Assembly: GCA_018400755.1 (NCBI GenBank)
Contig: JAGYLU010000010.1
Coordinates: forward strand, 1 to 47,246
Length of the DNA: 47,246 nucleotides
Origin: Acholeplasmataceae bacterium
GTDB lineage: Bacteria > Bacillota_I > Bacilli_A > Acholeplasmatales > Acholeplasmataceae
Direction: 5' to 3'
Part shown: positions 1,478 through 11,721 of the stretch, in pieces
Layout of the letters: each line of letters starts with the position of its first letter
How positions within the stretch are numbered: the stretch's first letter is position 1
Translations under genes and position numbers: made by a program
The notes under the pieces: model-generated
The model's input: the letters and a program-made list of their open reading frames with translations, nothing else
The model's database searches: none
What the model was told of the DNA's origin: nothing

Positions 1478-3022
1478 TCATTGTTTTCTTCGTCTGAATT
1501 TTTCCAGGTAAAAGACAACCCCGATCCCCAAGCCTAAAATCATCACGGATATGATGGTCACCCAAGGGATGTTTTGATCCGCTTCCGAAACAATGACAAG
1601 AATCTCATCGCTCATCACTCTTTCTTCCAAAACATAGTTGATGGTCACCAAATACTCACCACGTTGATCAGGACTAAGAAGATAATCATTGTCACTGATC
1701 CTGATCTCTGTAATCATCATTCCCAATGCCAGATAACGCTCAGTCATGATCCTGATCAGCTCTGACTCATCAAGCACATCATCCACGGTTGTCCTGATGA
1801 TTCCATCACTGAGACTGAGTACCGGAGCAGCATCTCTCACCACATGGATATTGATGTGTTTGAGACTGGCAAGACCGTGACTGTCCTCAGCCGAAAGTGT
1901 CACCCTATAAACGCCTGGCGTCTGACTTTTCTGATACTCGTCATAGACCATCACAAGGTCAACGAACTGATTGTCAGAGACATCAAAGGCCTCATACCTG
2001 CCAATGATCTCCTCATCACTCATCGGTATGTCACTCGCATAGATGAACACATCCGGTGGTCCACTGATTTCTGGTCCTTCGTTTTCAAAGACAACCACCA
2101 TGACACTCAAAATCGTCTCATTTCCGGATGTGTCCTTGGCTTCAAACACCACCTCATAGGTCCCTGGCTCGGTCGCCCCGATCATGGCATTTGAGACAAT
2201 CCGGATATCCGATCTTGTCATCTCATCAACATCATCGGAAACGTCCAATGCCCCAATCAATACCGATGGGTCCACATCAAACGTCTCATAAGGTCCCATC
2301 TCAGTGATGACCTCAATCACCGGCGGCGTCCGGTCCACTAACGACACATCAAGGTCAAATGTCACCATGACCCCCTGGTCTTCTGCCTCATAGGTCACCA
2401 AGAACATCCCTGTGGGCGTTGTCCGCCCTTGATAGGCCTCATCATCCATTCGGATTGACAAAGGCATCCCGCCCGTTCCTGTTCCGCTCACAAGCGCACT
2501 CAAGTCATCTGAAGACGGCGGGTTGCTGGCATCAAACTCAATGGTTCCTGAACATCTTCGGTCTCTTCCAAATGGGATGAACCCAGAGAAATCCTGATAG
2601 GATCCCTCATAGATCATCGCATCATAAGATGATTCCGGCAAGACCGGAATGTTTGAGATCGTGACCTCATCGGTCGTTGCGACAAAACTCGCATGAATCC
2701 GTCTTTGGTTGACATCATCTTCAAAAGGCACATCCAAAGACACACCATCACGATCTTCGACCGACATCATCAGAAAATCCACATAACCCGCGTGCTGACC
2801 GATAAATCCATAATCGAGCACCACCGTATGCAAGACGCCCGCTTCAAGCACAATCGGATCCTTGGTGGTTGCCAGATACGTGCTGTCATCAGAGACGACC
2901 AGATTCGATAGATCAAGCAGATTCCTATTGATTTCAGTTCCAACCTCAACCGCCCTGACCTCAACGCCTCGTGTCATCACCGCCATAAACATCAGAAAAG
3001 ACATCAACAACTTATATCTCAT
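1478..3022 (-). CDS. Secreted, membrane-anchored protein with Ig-like domains
   Basis: 514 aa from the ATG at 3022, preceded by AGGAGGG; the 27 extra residues of the longer reading frame lie upstream of this site. The N-terminus (MRYKLLMSFLMFMAVMTRG) is a signal peptide. The middle holds repeated Ig/DUF5011-like beta-sandwich modules: 'TPPVIEV...PGTYEVVFEAKDTSGNET' and 'EGPEISGPPD...PGVYRVTLSAEDSHG' are typical. The C-terminus is one membrane helix followed by FRRRKQ, so most of the protein faces outside. There is no LPXTG sorting signal. It is probably a surface adhesin or structural protein; the specific role is unknown. Ig-like assignment is from residue pattern only. Confidence 0.8.
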   Translation of the reverse strand: MRYKLLMSFLMFMAVMTRGVEVRAVEVGTEINRNLLDLSNLVVSDDSTYLATTKDPIVLEAGVLHTVVLDYGFIGQHAGYVDFLMMSVEDRDGVSLDVPFEDDVNQRRIHASFVATTDEVTISNIPVLPESSYDAMIYEGSYQDFSGFIPFGRDRRCSGTIEFDASNPPSSDDLSALVSGTGTGGMPLSIRMDDEAYQGRTTPTGMFLVTYEAEDQGVMVTFDLDVSLVDRTPPVIEVITEMGPYETFDVDPSVLIGALDVSDDVDEMTRSDIRIVSNAMIGATEPGTYEVVFEAKDTSGNETILSVMVVVFENEGPEISGPPDVFIYASDIPMSDEEIIGRYEAFDVSDNQFVDLVMVYDEYQKSQTPGVYRVTLSAEDSHGLASLKHINIHVVRDAAPVLSLSDGIIRTTVDDVLDESELIRIMTERYLALGMMITEIRISDNDYLLSPDQRGEYLVTINYVLEERVMSDEILVIVSEADQNIPWVTIISVMILGLGIGVVFYLEKFRRRKQ

Positions 3023-3068
3023 ATGTATCCCTCCTGACCTATCATTGGCAAGTGATGTTTGAATTACT

Positions 3069-3095
3069 ACAAAAAAGAACCCAAACCGGGTTCTT
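3069..3095 (-). terminator. Terminator of the Gln-Gln-His tRNA operon
   Basis: Minus-strand 8-bp perfect stem (arms 3088-3095 and 3075-3082), 5-base loop, then TTTTTT. It lies just after tRNA-Gln(CTG) and upstream of the Ig-like gene. Confidence 0.85.
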
Positions 3096-3105
3096 ATTGT
3101 CATGT

Positions 3106-3179
3106 TGGCAGGGCTAGCTGGATTCGAACCAACGATCGAAGGGTCAGAGCCTTCTGCCTTGCCGCTTGGCTATAGCCCT
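3106..3179 (-). tRNA. tRNA-Gln (anticodon CTG)
   Basis: 74 nt with encoded CCA. The anticodon loop CTCTGAC gives CTG. The acceptor arms AGGGCTA and TAGCCCT pair fully. Confidence 0.92.
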
Positions 3180-3196
3180 ACATGATATGAAAGAGG

Positions 3197-3270
3197 TGGC
3201 AGGCCCAGCTGGATTCGAACCAACGATGAGGGAGTCAAAGTCCCTTGCCTTACCCCTTGGCTATGGGCCT
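3197..3270 (-). tRNA. tRNA-Gln (anticodon TTG)
   Basis: 74 nt with encoded CCA. The loop CTTTGAC gives TTG and the acceptor arms AGGCCCA and TGGGCCT pair. It is closely similar to the adjacent tRNA-Gln(CTG), so a local duplication is likely. Confidence 0.94.
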
Positions 3271-3278
3271 GTAAATAG

Positions 3279-4613: not shown

Positions 4614-4634
4614 AGGCGTCTGACGCCTTTTTTT
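4614..4634 (+). terminator. Terminator of tRNA-Trp
   Basis: Stem AGGCGT/ACGCCT followed by seven T. The T run overlaps the stop codon of the convergent phoR gene. Confidence 0.8.
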
Positions 4635-6330
4635 ATTGTTCACGATGCCTTGGCAACAAAATCCTGATGGTTGTTCCTTTGCCGAGTTGTGACTGAAGGT
4701 CAATAGTTCCCTCATATTTCATCGTGATGTGCTTCACAATCGCCAGTCCCAACCCTGTGCCACCTTCGATTCTGCCCTTGTCAATCCGGTAAAAACGTTC
4801 AAAGACGCGGTGCCTGTGTTCCGGGGCAATCCCAATCCCATGGTCTGCAACGGAGAAACTGATATGTTGTTCCTTGATATCAAGATGGATCTCAATCTCA
4901 CCTTGGTCATGACTGTATCTGATGGCATTTTCAATCAGGTTCTTGAACAATGTCCTGATATCGAGTGGATCTGCCATCATGACGACCGCTTTGATGTTTG
5001 TTCTGATCGTGATGTTCTTTTGCTTGGCCATGATTGAAAGCGACTGGATGACATCCCTTAGTACCCCGTCGAAGGGAACGTCGCTTTGGTCGCCGTCTTT
5101 GAGATGCTCAAGTCTTGAAAGCATGAGCATATCCTCTACAAGTGCAGTCATCGTCTTTGTCTGACCGACAATCATCGAGGAGACATGCTTCACTTCATCC
5201 TTGTCAATCAACTGGTGTTCGATCAGTTCGGCATACCCGCGGATGGCCGTCAAGGGCGATTTGAGTTCATGCGAGGCATGGGCGACGAAATCCCTTTTCA
5301 TCTGTTCGATGGCCCGCTTCTGGGTGACCTCATTCATGAGGATCAGTGCCGTCGCATCCTTCTCATCATAGGGCTTCTGATTCACCTGAAACGCTTTGAC
5401 CTCATAGAGTCTGTCTTTGATCCGGATATCAAAAGAAGCGGGATGTTCGCCTTTGTTGACAGCGGAAAGAGCCTGTCTGATCTCGATTGGCCGAATGAAG
5501 CCAATCGCTTCCTGATTGATGTGTGAATCGGTCAGTGCAAAGATGTCTTTGGCATCTGTGTTGTAATAGAGCAAAGCTTCGTTGGCATTGAAAATCAGCA
5601 CCGCTTGACGCATGACATCGAGGACTTTCGAGAGTTGCTCCTGATAGCGTTCGATCGCTCTGACATGGGATGAGAGTTCGTTGTTGATCTCATTCATCTC
5701 CAAGACGATCTCGTTGATTTCCTGATAAGGGCCTCGTGGGGCGATCACCATATACCGTCCGTCTTTGATGCCCTTCATCCCTTCCTTGATGGCAGACCAT
5801 GGTTTGAGAATGTGATCATTTAATCTCCTAAGGCCCACATAGTAGATCAGAAGGACACCAACACCACCAAGTAAGAGCATCATGATCAACCTCGCATACG
5901 CATCAGCTTGGGACTCAAGCGGGACAGAGACCCTCACGATCGATCCGTCATCAAGCTGTTTTGCGACATAGAGCAACTCGATGCCGATGGTGTCGGAACG
6001 TCTTGTTGAAATTGACCCAATGTCCTTGATCTCTGGTCTCTCATGCTTGTCGGTCCCAACCGTCTCATCATGCGAGTCAGCGATGACGATGCCATCTTGG
6101 TCAAGAATTGTGATTCGGCGGTCAGAATCGGTTGTCCAGATATCAACAAATGTCTCTGGCGAACCCTGATAGGACTCAAAAGCCAAGACGACCTCATCAA
6201 GGACAACATGCATGAAGATTTCGCGTTGTTTTTTCTGATAATCACTCACTGTCCAGAACACAACAGCAAACATGGCCACGAACGCGGCCAAGACCAATAG
6301 CATATTATTCCGGACGATGGCCTGTCTCAT
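4633..6330 (-). CDS. phoR: PhoR-type sensor histidine kinase
   Basis: 565 aa. Two membrane helices (~8-28 and ~147-167) enclose a ~120-residue extracytoplasmic sensor. A HAMP-like linker, a PAS domain (~235-335) and the kinase core follow: H-box HASHELKSPLTAIRGY with phospho-acceptor His354, N-box NLIENAIRYS, G1 DHGIGI, F-box FERFYRID and G2 GGTGLGLAIVKH. It phosphorylates the response regulator encoded just upstream. The ATG overlaps the phoP stop (ATGA), so translation is probably coupled. It is the last gene of the phosphate operon, which implies phosphate-starvation sensing, normally through contact with PhoU and the Pst transporter. Confidence 0.93.
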   Translation of the reverse strand: MRQAIVRNNMLLVLAAFVAMFAVVFWTVSDYQKKQREIFMHVVLDEVVLAFESYQGSPETFVDIWTTDSDRRITILDQDGIVIADSHDETVGTDKHERPEIKDIGSISTRRSDTIGIELLYVAKQLDDGSIVRVSVPLESQADAYARLIMMLLLGGVGVLLIYYVGLRRLNDHILKPWSAIKEGMKGIKDGRYMVIAPRGPYQEINEIVLEMNEINNELSSHVRAIERYQEQLSKVLDVMRQAVLIFNANEALLYYNTDAKDIFALTDSHINQEAIGFIRPIEIRQALSAVNKGEHPASFDIRIKDRLYEVKAFQVNQKPYDEKDATALILMNEVTQKRAIEQMKRDFVAHASHELKSPLTAIRGYAELIEHQLIDKDEVKHVSSMIVGQTKTMTALVEDMLMLSRLEHLKDGDQSDVPFDGVLRDVIQSLSIMAKQKNITIRTNIKAVVMMADPLDIRTLFKNLIENAIRYSHDQGEIEIHLDIKEQHISFSVADHGIGIAPEHRHRVFERFYRIDKGRIEGGTGLGLAIVKHITMKYEGTIDLQSQLGKGTTIRILLPRHREQ

Positions 6331-6989
6331 TCGACCATGTAACCGACACCCCGGATGGTCCTGATGACCATCTCGGAGTTGTGTTCCAGCAATTTGTCAC
6401 GAAGCGCTTTGATATGCATGTCAAGGGTTCTTGTCTCGCCGATATAATCTGTTTCCCAGACGTTCATGAAGATGTCTTCTTTTCTGACAACCAATCCCTT
6501 TTGCGAGATCAATAGCTTCATGATCTCGTATTCCTTGTTCGTGAGATAAACATCGTTCTCATCGACAAAGAACTTGTGCCTGCTGTCATCGAGGATGACG
6601 TTTTTGAGTGAGAACAGGTCACGATCCTTATGCTTTCTCAGTTTGGACTGGATCCTAGATGTCAGTTCCAATACGCCAAATGGCTTTGTCATATAATCAT
6701 CCGCACCAAGATCAAGGGCGGTGACCTTGTCCATCTCATTTTGCAATGCTGAGACCATCATCACCGGAATCTCCGAATCCAGTTTCCGGATGGTTCTGAG
6801 CAACTCAAGACCACTGATATCAGGAAGCATGATATCTAGAAGGACCATATCCGGACGGTTCTTTGCGAAAGCGTCCAAAAAAGCCTCACCTTGTTTGAAT
6901 CCGATACCTTTCAGTCCTGCGTTTAGAATCGTTTTCTCGATGATGTAGCCGATGGCCTGATCATCTTCAACATAATAGACTAGTGGCAT
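6327..6989 (-). CDS. phoP: PhoP/PhoB-type response regulator
   Basis: 220 aa, OmpR/PhoB family. The receiver domain has phospho-acceptor Asp52 (VLLDIMLPD) and the conserved Lys102 (TKPFG). The C-terminal winged helix ends with RTIRGVGYMVE. A GTG two codons upstream (6995) is only one base from AGGAGG, whereas the ATG at 6989 has seven bases of spacing, so 6989 is preferred. The Shine-Dalgarno overlaps the phoU stop codon. It likely binds the Pho boxes upstream of pstS and so autoregulates the operon. Confidence 0.93.
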   Translation of the reverse strand: MPLVYYVEDDQAIGYIIEKTILNAGLKGIGFKQGEAFLDAFAKNRPDMVLLDIMLPDISGLELLRTIRKLDSEIPVMMVSALQNEMDKVTALDLGADDYMTKPFGVLELTSRIQSKLRKHKDRDLFSLKNVILDDSRHKFFVDENDVYLTNKEYEIMKLLISQKGLVVRKEDIFMNVWETDYIGETRTLDMHIKALRDKLLEHNSEMVIRTIRGVGYMVE

Positions 6990-7000
6990 GCTCACCCCTC

Positions 7001-7663
7001 CTAGAATAGCTCAGTGTGTTTGTGCTTGCCGGTTTCGATGAAGATGATCCATTCCGCGATGTTGACGGCATGGTCACCAATCCGTTCGATGTACTTGGCA
7101 ACCATCAACACATAGATGGCTTCATTGGGATCAATTTTCTCATTCTTCAGTTCAGTTGTGATCTTTTGAACGACAAGATTGAACAGATCATCCACCTCAT
7201 CATCCATCTGAATGACTTTCAAAGCAATGTTCCGGTCCACTTTGACAAGCGCTTCAACACTTGATAGGACCATGCGTTCGATCACTTCGATCATCTCTGT
7301 GGTCAAAGGCATCACCCGGCGGTTACGCTGATCGGAAAGATGAAGCGTCATTTCCGCGATATCAGAAGCGTGGTCGCCAATCCGTTCGAGGTCGGTGATC
7401 AGTTTCAAGATCCCGGTGACGAGTCTGAGGTCGGTCGCCAGTGGCTGTTCCCGCCAAATGATCCTGAGTGCATCCTTGGCAATCTCCTCTTCCATCCGGT
7501 CCACCTCATCATCAAGGCTCATGACCCGTTTGGCGGCCTCAAGATCGTTTTCTTTGAAGGCGTTCAATCCGGCCTTGACATTGGATAAAGCAAGATCCGC
7601 CATCTGGATGACGTCTCTTTTGATGCTCTCAATGGCTTTTAGCAATGTTTGTCTTTGGGGCAT
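7001..7663 (-). CDS. phoU: Phosphate transport regulator PhoU
   Basis: About 220 aa, all-helical with two copies of the PhoU repeat, each carrying the acidic metal-binding signature: DDEVDRMEEEI in the first and DDEVDDLFNLV in the second, plus the family sequence ERIGDHASDIAE / ERIGDHAVNIAE. PhoU restrains PhoR kinase and Pst activity when phosphate is plentiful. A start at 7678 overlaps the pstB stop, but GGAGG lies within those first codons, 8 bases before the ATG at 7663, which is chosen. Confidence 0.93.
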   Translation of the reverse strand: MPQRQTLLKAIESIKRDVIQMADLALSNVKAGLNAFKENDLEAAKRVMSLDDEVDRMEEEIAKDALRIIWREQPLATDLRLVTGILKLITDLERIGDHASDIAEMTLHLSDQRNRRVMPLTTEMIEVIERMVLSSVEALVKVDRNIALKVIQMDDEVDDLFNLVVQKITTELKNEKIDPNEAIYVLMVAKYIERIGDHAVNIAEWIIFIETGKHKHTELF

Positions 7664-7677
7664 GGTGGTTTCCTCCA

Positions 7678-8448
7678 TTATCCGAACCTTCCTGTGATGT
7701 AGGCTTCGGTTTTGGGATTGTCAGGCGTTGAGAACACCTTCGATGTCGCACCGTGTTCAATCAGTTCTCCCATCAGGAAGAACGCGGTCTGATCGGAGAT
7801 CCTCGCGGCTTGTTGCATGTTGTGAGTGACGATGATGATGGTGTATCTCTCTTTCAATTCTACCACCAAATCCTCAATTTTTTGCGTCGCAATCGGATCA
7901 AGTGCCGATGTCGGCTCATCCATCAGGATGACGTCTGGCTTCATTGCGATCGTTCTCGCGATACAAAGCCGTTGCTGCTGCCCACCAGACAGAGAAAGCG
8001 CAGACTCTTTTAGGCGGTCTTTGACCTCATCATAAAGGGCAGCTTGCATCAGCGATGACTCGACAATCTCATCAAGAATCTCTTTTTTCTTGACCCCTTG
8101 GCACCGTGGTCCGTAAGCGATGTTGTCATAGATTGACATCGGAAAGGGATTGGGTTTCTGAAAGACCATCCCGACCCGTTTCCTGAGACCGATGACATCG
8201 GTCTCAGAGGCATAGATGTTCTCATCATGAAACATGACCTTACCATCAATCCGACATTCCTCAATCAGGTCATTCATCCGGTTCAACACTCTCAAGAACG
8301 TCGACTTCCCACATCCGGATGGTCCGATCAAGGCTGTGACCTCATGTTCAAGACACTCCAGACGGATGTCCTTCAAGGCTTGGTTTTCACCATAATAGAG
8401 ATTCAATTGATTGACGCTGAAAGCGATATTTGTCTTCTTCTCGTTCAT
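7678..8448 (-). CDS. pstB: Phosphate ABC transporter ATPase PstB
   Basis: 256 aa, normal length. Walker [10 protein letters not shown] (42-50), Q-loop [10 protein letters not shown] (PstB-specific), signature [16 protein letters not shown], Walker [14 protein letters not shown] and switch His VTHN are all present. It powers phosphate import with PstA and PstC. Its ATG overlaps the pstA stop by four bases. Confidence 0.97.
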
Positions 8449-9653
8449 TTGGTTACCCCATACTTTCTAAGCATACGTTTTGACAGAAACTTGATTGATA
8501 TATTCATGGATAAGACGATGATCAGGATGATGATGGCAATCGTCGAGGATAACTCGACATTGGCGGGCTCATCAGACATCATCGCCCAGATATGGACAGC
8601 AAGCGAGGTCGATTTGCCGGTCAATGTGATGTCATCCTTGATACTCGTGCCAATCGCGAAGACGAGCGCCGCGCTTTCACCGATGATCCTACCGATCGCG
8701 AGAAGCGTCGCGGTCAGGATCCCCGCCGAGGCATTGGGAAGAACAACCTTGAAGGTCGTCTGGGTCCTGCTCGCCCCAAGGGCAAGCGAGGCGTGCCGAT
8801 AATCATCAGGCACGACCTTGAGACTCTCCTCGGTCGTTCTGATCACAACCGGAAGCAAGATGACAGCCAGTGTCAAGGCCCCACTGATGATGTTCCCGCC
8901 GGTAGCATCCGTAAGCCTGACGGTCATGGGGACGAAGATTGCGAGTCCCATCAGACCGTAGATGATCGATGGTACGCCGGTCAGGGTCTCAATGAATGAT
9001 CTGATCAGACGCGTCAGACGGGTCTTCGGTGCGAACTCATTCAGATAGAGGGCCGCACCTATTCCAACCGGAAGGGCGAACACCAAAGTCAGCCCGATCA
9101 GATAAAGGGTCGTGATGATCGAGCCTCTGATGCCTCCCCCACTGGTCTGAAACTCAAGTTCCCTGAAGGTCTCCATGGCATCAAAATCATCAATCATCCT
9201 CTTAGCACCATATCTGGACAAGGTCGAGGGTTGTCCCTCGAAAGCGATTCTGATCAATGTATCATCGACATCAAGGTCCAAGTATTCCTCGCTCACCCCT
9301 CTGTTCACAAGCTGATTGAGGGGAGAGTCAGGATGCACATAAGCGACAACAACCACAATGTTGCCCTCAAGGTTGGTATCATCCTTGAAACCAACACCCC
9401 AAGTGCTTGAATAGTAGATATCATCATCGAGTCTCTGATCCGGTTCACAATCACAGATCATAACCCCTTCAACCATCTCAGCGATATGGTTGACAGCCTT
9501 GTAGTCATGGGTGATGAGATCCAGGTTTAGAAGATGCGCCCCTTTGGCAAACACATATCCGAGAATGGAAAGCAACGCGAAGAGACTGATGAACGCCGCC
9601 CCATAAGTGACTGTCTTTAGAATCGAGTCTTTGACTCTCAGTCTATTTGACAT
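8445..9653 (-). CDS. pstA: Phosphate ABC permease PstA with a large extracytoplasmic insertion
   Basis: 402 aa, over 100 longer than usual PstA. The C-terminal ~230 residues are a normal permease with six helices and the ATPase-coupling loop [30 protein letters not shown]. Between helix 1 (~18-40) and helix 2 (from ~178) is an extra ~120-residue domain. Its residues ~85-170 read like a PDZ domain: GVGF loop, then [37 protein letters not shown] and ETFRELEF. Start: an upstream ATG at 9683 exists, but AAAGGTGG precedes the ATG at 9653, which overlaps the pstC end by 11 bases. PDZ identity is inferred from pattern only. Confidence 0.92.
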
Positions 9654-10590
9654 GGACGTTTCCCACCTTTCTCTTGACCGCATTCAAGACAAGATTGGTG
9701 AGCAGGATCACCGCCATCAACACCAGGCCCACACTGAACCGGATGTCATAGTCGATACCTACAGTCTCATGATGCCCTTCGAGCATGATGGTGGTCAGGG
9801 TCGATGTCGTATCGAAAATATTGAATGAAACGCCGGAACGACGTCCCCCGGAGACCAGTGAGACAGCTGTCGCCTCGCCAAGAACGCGTCCGATCCCAAG
9901 GATCGCCGACGTGAAGATCCCTGATTTGGCTGCCAACAAGACGACTTTGAAGTGGGTTTGGGTCGGACTCGCCCCAAGGGCAAGTGACGCATGTTCGAGA
10001 TCCTTGTCGACGCTTCTGATCGCAACCTCGGAAATGCTCGTGATTGTTGGAATCGTCATCAAAGCGAGGACAATGACCGATGAAAGCACCGAGTTCCCTC
10101 CTTTGGACTGATACCCAACGGCATTTGAGAGATTGTAGACCAACTGCAAAATCAATCCCGCTCCGAACAACCCATAGATGATTGATGGAATGGATGCCAA
10201 CATCTCAACCACGGTGCGAAGCATCTCCGCAAGTTTCTTCGGGGCGATCTTGGCAATGAACAACGCCGTCAGGACGCCAATCGGAAATGAGATCAATAGT
10301 GATAGAAACGCGACAAAGAACGTGTTGACAATCACAAAGCCAACCGCATAGAGACTAGACTGCGCATAAGGCCCCGTCAGCCAAACACTGCCGGTCAGAA
10401 ACGGAATGACCTCAACCCGGCCAAGGCCGTTGTTGTCGGTGATAAAAGGTCCAAGTCCTTTGGCCAGGATGACGCCGGCAATGACGAAGACAAACGACGC
10501 TGAGATGAGCGCGACGACCTTGAGTGAATTGGCGGTCAGTTTGTCAATCAGAGCGGTCCGTTTGCCGTGTTGATGTTCGATTGGTGACAT
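9643..10590 (-). CDS. pstC: Phosphate ABC permease PstC
   Basis: 315 aa with six predicted helices and the permease coupling loop [31 protein letters not shown]. It pairs with PstA to form the membrane channel. AAGGAGGAG (10595-10603) lies 4 bases before the ATG at 10590; the in-frame start at 10620 is inside the terminator hairpin and is rejected. Length and topology are typical, without the insertion seen in PstA. Confidence 0.96.
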   Translation of the reverse strand: MSPIEHQHGKRTALIDKLTANSLKVVALISASFVFVIAGVILAKGLGPFITDNNGLGRVEVIPFLTGSVWLTGPYAQSSLYAVGFVIVNTFFVAFLSLLISFPIGVLTALFIAKIAPKKLAEMLRTVVEMLASIPSIIYGLFGAGLILQLVYNLSNAVGYQSKGGNSVLSSVIVLALMTIPTITSISEVAIRSVDKDLEHASLALGASPTQTHFKVVLLAAKSGIFTSAILGIGRVLGEATAVSLVSGGRRSGVSFNIFDTTSTLTTIMLEGHHETVGIDYDIRFSVGLVLMAVILLTNLVLNAVKRKVGNVHVK

Positions 10591-10607
10591 GATACTCCTC
10601 CTTACAG

Positions 10608-10634
10608 GAAAAAGGCCCATGACTCATGGGCCTT
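10608..10634 (-). terminator. Terminator/attenuator between pstS and pstC
   Basis: Perfect 10-bp stem (arms 10625-10634 and 10612-10621), 3-base loop and T run on the minus strand, between the pstS stop and the pstC ribosome site. Partial termination here would make more binding protein than transporter, a common arrangement in pst operons. Confidence 0.85.
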
Positions 10635-10659: not shown

Positions 10660-11622
10660 TTATGCGGTTGGGACATCGGCCCATGTGCTGTATGTGCCTT
10701 CGTAGATCTTCTTGAGTGTTTCAGCGGTCATGTTTGTGATAGGATTGTCTTTGTGAACGATCGCGACAATCGCATCCCATGCGAGTTGGCCATAATTCGC
10801 TTCATCGATTGCAACAGGTTCATCACCAGGTGTGAGTTTTTCAGCATCTTTGAAGGGGCGTGATGCGAATCCGACATCCTTGCCGACATCGCCATCTTTC
10901 TGGTCACCATAAGTGCGCTTGTAGGCATCGCTTGATCCGGTGTGGTCATGTTCGGCCACGAAGTTTCCAGCCTTGGCAGTGAAGGCCGTCGTCAGAGCGG
11001 TTGCGACACTGGTGATCGAGTTTGATCCACCGAAACGGACAACGACAAGGGAGTTGTCTTCCAAAGTGATCGGATAATCATCTTTGATATCATCCCAGGT
11101 CACGGTCGAAGACAGTGCGATCGCGCCTTTGTTGGCGATGATGTCAGCAGCATCGGTGGTTCCAAGGAATGCGACGAAAGCTTCAACGAGATCCTCAACA
11201 GCTTGACTCGGATAGTCGCCTTCGGCTCTGACCATCCAGTTGAAGGGACGCTTCAGACCATACGTGTTGTTCATGACGTTTTCAATGGTCGGTTCGACAC
11301 CTTCGAACTCAAGACCCTTGATGGTGTCATTGATGCTGGAAAGTGAGACATAACCAATGCCGTATTCATCAACGGTCATGGCGGTCATGATGCCAGCGTT
11401 GTCTTTGGTGACAAACCCATCAGCAAGCAAGCTGTCATCGGTTGCCGCATCTCCGAAGCCAATACCGTTCATGAATCCGTCGCGGGTACCTGAACTGGTA
11501 TCTCTTGTGTAAACAACGACTGTGCTTGTCAAATCAAATTCATCTTGATCCTCAACTTCTTCACAGGCCACAAGACCAGCGAATGCGAAGAGAAGAACAA
11601 CTGCGATTAACCATTTTTTCAT
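10660..11622 (-). CDS. pstS: Circularly permuted phosphate-binding lipoprotein PstS
   Basis: 320 aa. Signal peptide with lipobox LVAC (Cys20), so membrane-tethered. The family's usual C-terminal half comes first: VVVYTRDTSSGTRDGF (phosphate loop SGTR), YGIGYVSLSSI, FEGVEPTIENV, then the 'FVAFL...IIANKGAI' end (residues ~34-170). The usual N-terminal half follows: VVVRFGGSNSITSVATALTTAF, DHTGSSDAYK, DVGFASRPF, AIVAIVHKDNPITNMTAETLKKIYEGTYSTWADV (190-318). Every segment of one PstS is present once, in swapped order. AAAGGAG precedes the ATG. First gene of the operon, driven by Pho boxes. Confidence 0.93.
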   Translation of the reverse strand: MKKWLIAVVLLFAFAGLVACEEVEDQDEFDLTSTVVVYTRDTSSGTRDGFMNGIGFGDAATDDSLLADGFVTKDNAGIMTAMTVDEYGIGYVSLSSINDTIKGLEFEGVEPTIENVMNNTYGLKRPFNWMVRAEGDYPSQAVEDLVEAFVAFLGTTDAADIIANKGAIALSSTVTWDDIKDDYPITLEDNSLVVVRFGGSNSITSVATALTTAFTAKAGNFVAEHDHTGSSDAYKRTYGDQKDGDVGKDVGFASRPFKDAEKLTPGDEPVAIDEANYGQLAWDAIVAIVHKDNPITNMTAETLKKIYEGTYSTWADVPTA

Positions 11623-11655: not shown

Positions 11656-11721
11656 ATTATACAAATCTCTTCCCTTGCGTGATACCAAGCCATGGTAAGG
11701 GTTATGTAAAGACCATGTAAA
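11656..11721 (-). promoter_or_regulatory. Pho-box promoter of the pst-pho operon
   Basis: Four direct repeats, each 11 bases apart, on the minus strand: TTTACA (11716-11721), TTTACA (11705-11710), CTTACC (11694-11699), TTGGTA (11683-11688). They match the B. subtilis PhoP consensus TT(A/T/C)ACA with 5-base gaps. A perfect TATAAT (11656-11661) follows 21 bases after the last repeat and there is no good -35 box, as expected for a PhoP-activated promoter. Confidence 0.88.

Follow-up and report, generated by a model that had tools for sequence, protein, structure and literature searches.

The gene at positions 10660 to 11622 (minus strand) of the window, by which we mean the whole 47,246-nucleotide stretch of Acholeplasmataceae DNA analyzed here, encodes a 320-residue lipoprotein, PstS, that is one complete copy of the protein with its halves swapped, i.e., circularly permuted. 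We put at roughly 0.9 the probability that this protein is the working, permuted phosphate-binding lipoprotein of a high-affinity PstSCAB importer. With less assurance, we consider it probable that PstS of the Acholeplasmatales type is subject to a "rolling" permutation, that is, repeated tandem fusion and re-trimming, reversal included, with an extra domain in PstA alongside. Below, C stands for the canonical second half and N for the canonical first half, so that the window PstS is C-N.

Behind a signal peptide with the lipobox GLVAC (residues 1 to 20, lipobox at 16 to 20; positions 11563 to 11622, minus strand, as are all window features given here), whose Cys20 was conserved in the homologue alignment, the C-half occupied residues 33 to 170 (11113 to 11526) and the N-half residues 192 to 318 (10669 to 11049). 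The C-half was delimited by a half-HMM together with NCBIfam model TIGR02136 (295 positions long), of which residues 34 to 166 covered positions 163 to 291 as the better of two stretches; the N-half was delimited by a half-HMM together with Pfam model PF12849 (267 positions long), of which residues 195 to 316 covered positions 12 to 125. Against the solved canonical PstS chains 4q8r, 4gd5, 1twy, and 4n13, the protein likewise aligned in two stretches of swapped order (E values down to 2e-22). Half-HMMs built from the family, a separate search that the original prediction had proposed as a check, gave the order C then N in the window PstS and in all intact close homologues and N then C in 30 canonical homologues, and each half was present exactly once in the window PstS; the protein is therefore permuted rather than duplicated. 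The reversed order and the single copy of each half had both been foreseen from the sequence, and no profile alignment placed both halves in the usual order. The sites of the old and new ends also agreed with what had been proposed: the half-HMM matches were separated by a linker between the old C and N termini at residues 171 to 191 (SSTVTWDDIKDDYPITLEDNS; 11050 to 11112), close to the predicted residues 175 to 190, and the new termini lay between W-x-DV and the SGTR strand. Measured as the gap between half-HMM matches, this linker had a median length of 22 residues in 92 permuted units.

All phosphate-loop motifs of PstS (R-x3-SGTR, GS-x-S, TGS, and ASR) were found in the window protein. The C-half contains R40-x3-S44-G45-T46-R47 and GIGYVSL...GVEPT.EN, and the N-half contains GGSNS, TGSS, DVGFASR, and NPIxNxT...W-x-DV. 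The loop RDTSSGTR (residues 40 to 47; 11482 to 11505) has a spacing that we take to be equal to that of R135-S139-G140-T141 in Escherichia coli. In an alignment of 24 homologues, R40, S44, G45, T46, and R47 were near-invariant, and S200, S202, T228, G229, S230, S254, and R255 were invariant. Canonical PstS proteins (TIGR02136 type; 4GD5, 4Q8R, and 1TWY) share with the window PstS both halves, the phosphate-loop motifs, the lipoprotein nature, and the operon context and differ from it in their N-C order and in the junction between N and C, which is constant in length and carries GG-x-D.

The gene heads an operon in which pstS is followed by pstC (9643 to 10620; TIGR02138, 209.5 bits, over the cutoff), pstA (412 residues, 8445 to 9683; TIGR00974, 232.4 bits, over the cutoff), pstB (ATPase, 7678 to 8448; TIGR00972, 418 bits), phoU (7001 to 7678; TIGR02135, 191 bits), and genes for a response regulator and a sensor histidine kinase, read from their sequences as phoP (6327 to 6995) and phoR (4633 to 6330). 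Pho-box direct repeats (TTTACAT-GGTC-TTTACAT-AACCC-TTACCA, 11693 to 11721) are present, with TTTACAT-N4-TTTACAT situated 99 bases upstream of pstS, and matching repeats preceded pstS in 15 of the 24 homologous loci, versus 0.7 expected from base shuffles. The intact, Pho-box-driven operon that had been claimed for this gene was thus borne out. As one collinear match, the window PstS missed the TIGR02136 cutoff (114.6 versus 206.6 bits), as would a different solute-binding protein, for instance of the sulfate or tungstate type, with a distant likeness to PstS. However, a linear model has no way of joining swapped halves into one match, so that a sub-cutoff score is to be expected; the credible matches were to PstS families only, the phosphate loop has kept its motifs, and the gene stands at the head of pstCAB-phoU behind a Pho box. 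We therefore regard such an identity as very improbable. Since the pst operon, the Pho box, and the conserved loop motifs coincide with the only PstS match in the genome, the window PstS is most likely a working phosphate receptor, the binding of phosphate itself being what we infer from these features. The low score also has a practical side: permuted PstS proteins, scored too low by linear profiles, may go unnoticed or receive a generic binding-protein annotation.

Prediction from the single sequence was of no use (pLDDT of 32.7). An AlphaFold model made with 24 permuted homologues reached a mean pLDDT of 86.7 and a pTM of 0.81, and its top Foldseek match in the PDB was 4H1X (E = 1.9e-22; TM score of 0.70 normalized to the query and 0.86 to the target), PstS2 (SP_2084) of Streptococcus pneumoniae. 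The second match fell to an E value of 5.7e-5, and there was no further PstS among the 50 matches listed; the absence of canonical PstS from these is what a sequential aligner would be expected to give. In sequence, too, 4H1X was collinear with the window PstS (query residues 32 to 316), and its alignments to 4q8r and 4gd5 each broke into two stretches of swapped order. The fold as modeled is thus kept after permutation, with an end-to-end match to a solved permuted PstS, and the permuted order has a solved precedent, available from the PDB since 2012. The original prediction had set the window protein against every PstS known to its author, a contrast that does not survive 4H1X, in which the swapped order and the breakpoints are identical. 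The two proteins differ in other respects: they share 22% identity in the structural alignment, they belong to different tree groups, and the linker of 4H1X, unlike that of the window PstS, resembles a direct join of the canonical termini. In a search of the open-access literature, we found no paper describing permutation in PstS or in 4H1X. As far as we could find, what is new is the insert in PstA and the set of forms described below (tandem, permuted at another breakpoint, or apparently reverted); the order itself is known.

A genome scan recovered 25 related loci in other records, including those of the named strains of Peloplasma aerotolerans and Paracholeplasma vituli. Of these, 23 aligned with the window PstS end to end or nearly so at 46 to 73% identity to it (one of the 23 begins at a contig edge); of the remaining two, one is frameshifted and the other, a near-copy of another locus, was omitted from the alignment. 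Across the class, about 89 of the 296 genomes sampled (by row count) had a C-N match that was collinear over at least about 200 model positions, and some 20 had the two stretches in canonical order; the query profile was itself permuted, so these counts indicate that the form is common and not what share it holds. Restriction of the permutation to the genus of the window was rejected by these matches. Because the window genome is a 239-contig draft, a swapped order produced by misassembly or by a rearrangement within this one gene had to be weighed, an assembly rearrangement within the gene having been named beforehand as a possible refutation. Against an artifact, the same order, breakpoints, and homologous linker recurred in the 23 intact homologues of other assemblies (two belong to named strains) and in several single-contig genomes, which leaves the artifact a negligible chance. 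As separate observations, genome G631 carried two distinct C-N PstS proteins (L167 and L168), G202 carried one C-N and one canonical N-C PstS (L076 and L089), and at L025 (5956 to 6507) and L166 (G576, of the window's genus) pieces of pstS were found in differing frames, reflecting frameshifts or sequencing errors.

In the permuted protein, the lipid anchor comes first and the SGTR-bearing half next; the linker of about 20 residues ties the old C terminus to the old N terminus, and the chain ends at W-x-DV, near its start, with the fold and the phosphate site retained. The tether would then leave from what is probably the lobe with the W-x-DV and SGTR elements instead of the lobe of the old N terminus. 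Opening of the chain at the new termini would be tolerated because these are few residues apart in canonical PstS, where the N-to-C gap is only 3 to 7. The permutation most likely arose by duplication, that is, by tandem fusion followed by trimming, and this cycle would have been rerun in the window's order and related orders to give the C-N-C-N and C-N-C-N-C-N proteins, the second permutation in G199, and the scar-bearing N-C forms.

Tandem fusions were indeed found among the relatives. C-N-C-N PstS genes were present in seven genomes (loci L057, L058, L059, L060, L061, L164, and L165), frameshifted in one (G585) and in one open frame in G033 (622 residues), G110 (651 residues, of the window's genus), G144 (593 residues, a single-contig genome), G158 (678 residues), G261 (643 residues), and G611 (664 residues), and one genome (G280, L062) encoded a C-N-C-N-C-N protein of 910 residues. 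The copies within a tandem protein were 75 to 98% identical, and divergence was, by eye, greatest toward the end of the inner N-half. A diverged inner end beside a near-identical remainder suggests gene conversion and a particular role of the final copy. A tandem in the ancestral order, N-C-N-C, was not found in the genomes searched, the first permutation being an old event. The missing intermediate would also suit a different history, in which PstS was split into two genes that were then fused in the opposite order with no tandem duplication. Yet the intact matches included no split half-genes, fused C-N tandems recur in the group, and scar-bearing N-C proteins resemble the outcome of duplication and trimming, so that we judge fission and fusion unlikely and prefer an origin through tandem duplication.

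A second permutation was found in genome G199 (L117, approximately 2343 to 3273, minus strand), as a single copy with pstC directly after it. The order of the segments in this protein was lipobox, tail of the C-half (model positions 101 to 137), linker, entire N-half, C-half positions 1 to 100, and stop, which makes one complete PstS copy with a breakpoint different from that of the C-N form. Its N-to-C junction was of canonical length, and it may therefore derive from the original N-C-N-C tandem rather than from a C-N-C-N protein; it may thus be another product of trimming of that original tandem.

Three genomes, G609 (L161), G610 (L162), and G592 (L163), encoded PstS proteins in N-C order with remnants of the permuted form. 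Their half scores were 112 to 128 bits, versus 31 to 76 bits in ordinary canonical proteins. The N-to-C junction, normalized to the model, was 4 in 29 of 30 ordinary canonical PstS proteins, usually with GG-x-D, and 7 to 19 in the tandem proteins; in the three N-C proteins it was 11 in two and 7 in one, the GG-x-D motif was absent, and in two of the three the junction carried FDTSK-x-I, which is the post-lipobox spacer of permuted proteins. A C-terminal tail of 26 to 27 residues matched the profile of the permuted C-to-N linker in these three only (46.5, 45.1, and 35.2 bits, versus 2.6 bits for the next best canonical tail). Such a tail and junction are what would be left if a C-N-C-N protein were trimmed to N-C, and we read them as an apparent reversal. 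The three proteins might instead be unpermuted ancestors whose C-terminal tail later became the linker, as holding them outside the permuted clade was not rejected in an AU test (P = 0.098). In the tree, however, they were nested with C-N and C-N-C-N forms in a clade that had support (99/91), their genera contain C-N species too, and their junctions are tandem-like in length, lack GG-x-D, and, in two, contain the spacer motif. The ancestral reading consequently appears to us rather doubtful, and reversal by trimming is preferred; the scars in the sequences are strong, and the tree by itself is not decisive.

In trees built with the PstS halves reordered, the C-N proteins split into three groups: group A is large and holds the window PstS along with those of the Acholeplasmatales and numerous others, group C is small, and group B, which includes 4H1X, was placed among canonical PstS proteins. 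Uniting all C-N proteins in one clade was not rejected (AU test, P = 0.28), so that the C-N order may have had one origin or two. A placement of G199 outside the permuted clade was not rejected either (P = 0.16).

Circular permutations are, to our knowledge, mostly known as isolated, ancient events, and the steps of duplication and trimming have rarely been observed. PstS in one bacterial order seems to display such steps: a permuted single copy, tandems, a second breakpoint, and a scarred return. If true, this "rolling" would be a natural, ongoing permutation by duplication with its reverse included, and the natural intermediates, if expressed, would make the model of duplication and trimming testable. 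Permutation by duplication has been reviewed for DNA methyltransferases and for saposin and swaposin (PMC3320104). As that model predicts, tandem intermediates and trimmed products are both present in the PstS family; unlike in the reviewed cases, a single bacterial order here contains tandem and permuted forms together with differently permuted and apparently reverted ones. TpMglB-2 (Tp0684) of Treponema pallidum resembles the window PstS in being a tethered substrate-binding lipoprotein with a naturally occurring circular permutation; its authors proposed a permuted subclass tied to tethering (PMC4990184). Unlike the window PstS, it binds glucose, has a Type I/Cluster B fold, and has had three strands of one lobe moved and not nearly half of the protein (PMC4990184).

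Between its TM1 and its permease core, the adjacent permease PstA carries an extracytoplasmic insert of about 110 to 130 residues (residues ~57 to 183; 9135 to 9515, within pstA). The insert was seen in L001 to L025, L117, L118, L136, L147, L148, and L151 to L160, including every group A and group C locus whose pstA was read (in L155 it was seen and not cleanly excised). Unlike in the window, it was absent from PstA in the five canonical loci read and in both group B loci examined, group B being that of 4H1X. It also adjoined the scar-bearing N-C PstS genes and therefore groups these with the permuted lineage. A conserved pattern, [YF]S..WG[IV]...D......G...V.V.Y[VI]...SP, runs through the insert. 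No Pfam model matched it at an E value of 10, and a profile search of the PDB gave nothing credible; a PDZ-like identity suggested by eye (WGIxL loop, SP motif, and C-terminal helix) lacked profile support, and we leave the insert unnamed. The insert, of a family unrecognized so far, marks most of the permuted lineages and may bear on the docking of the retethered binding protein. Elsewhere in the window, a 541-residue protein (1478 to 3103) had a signal-like N terminus, repeated Ig-like segments (DUF5011-like by eye), and a C-terminal membrane anchor.
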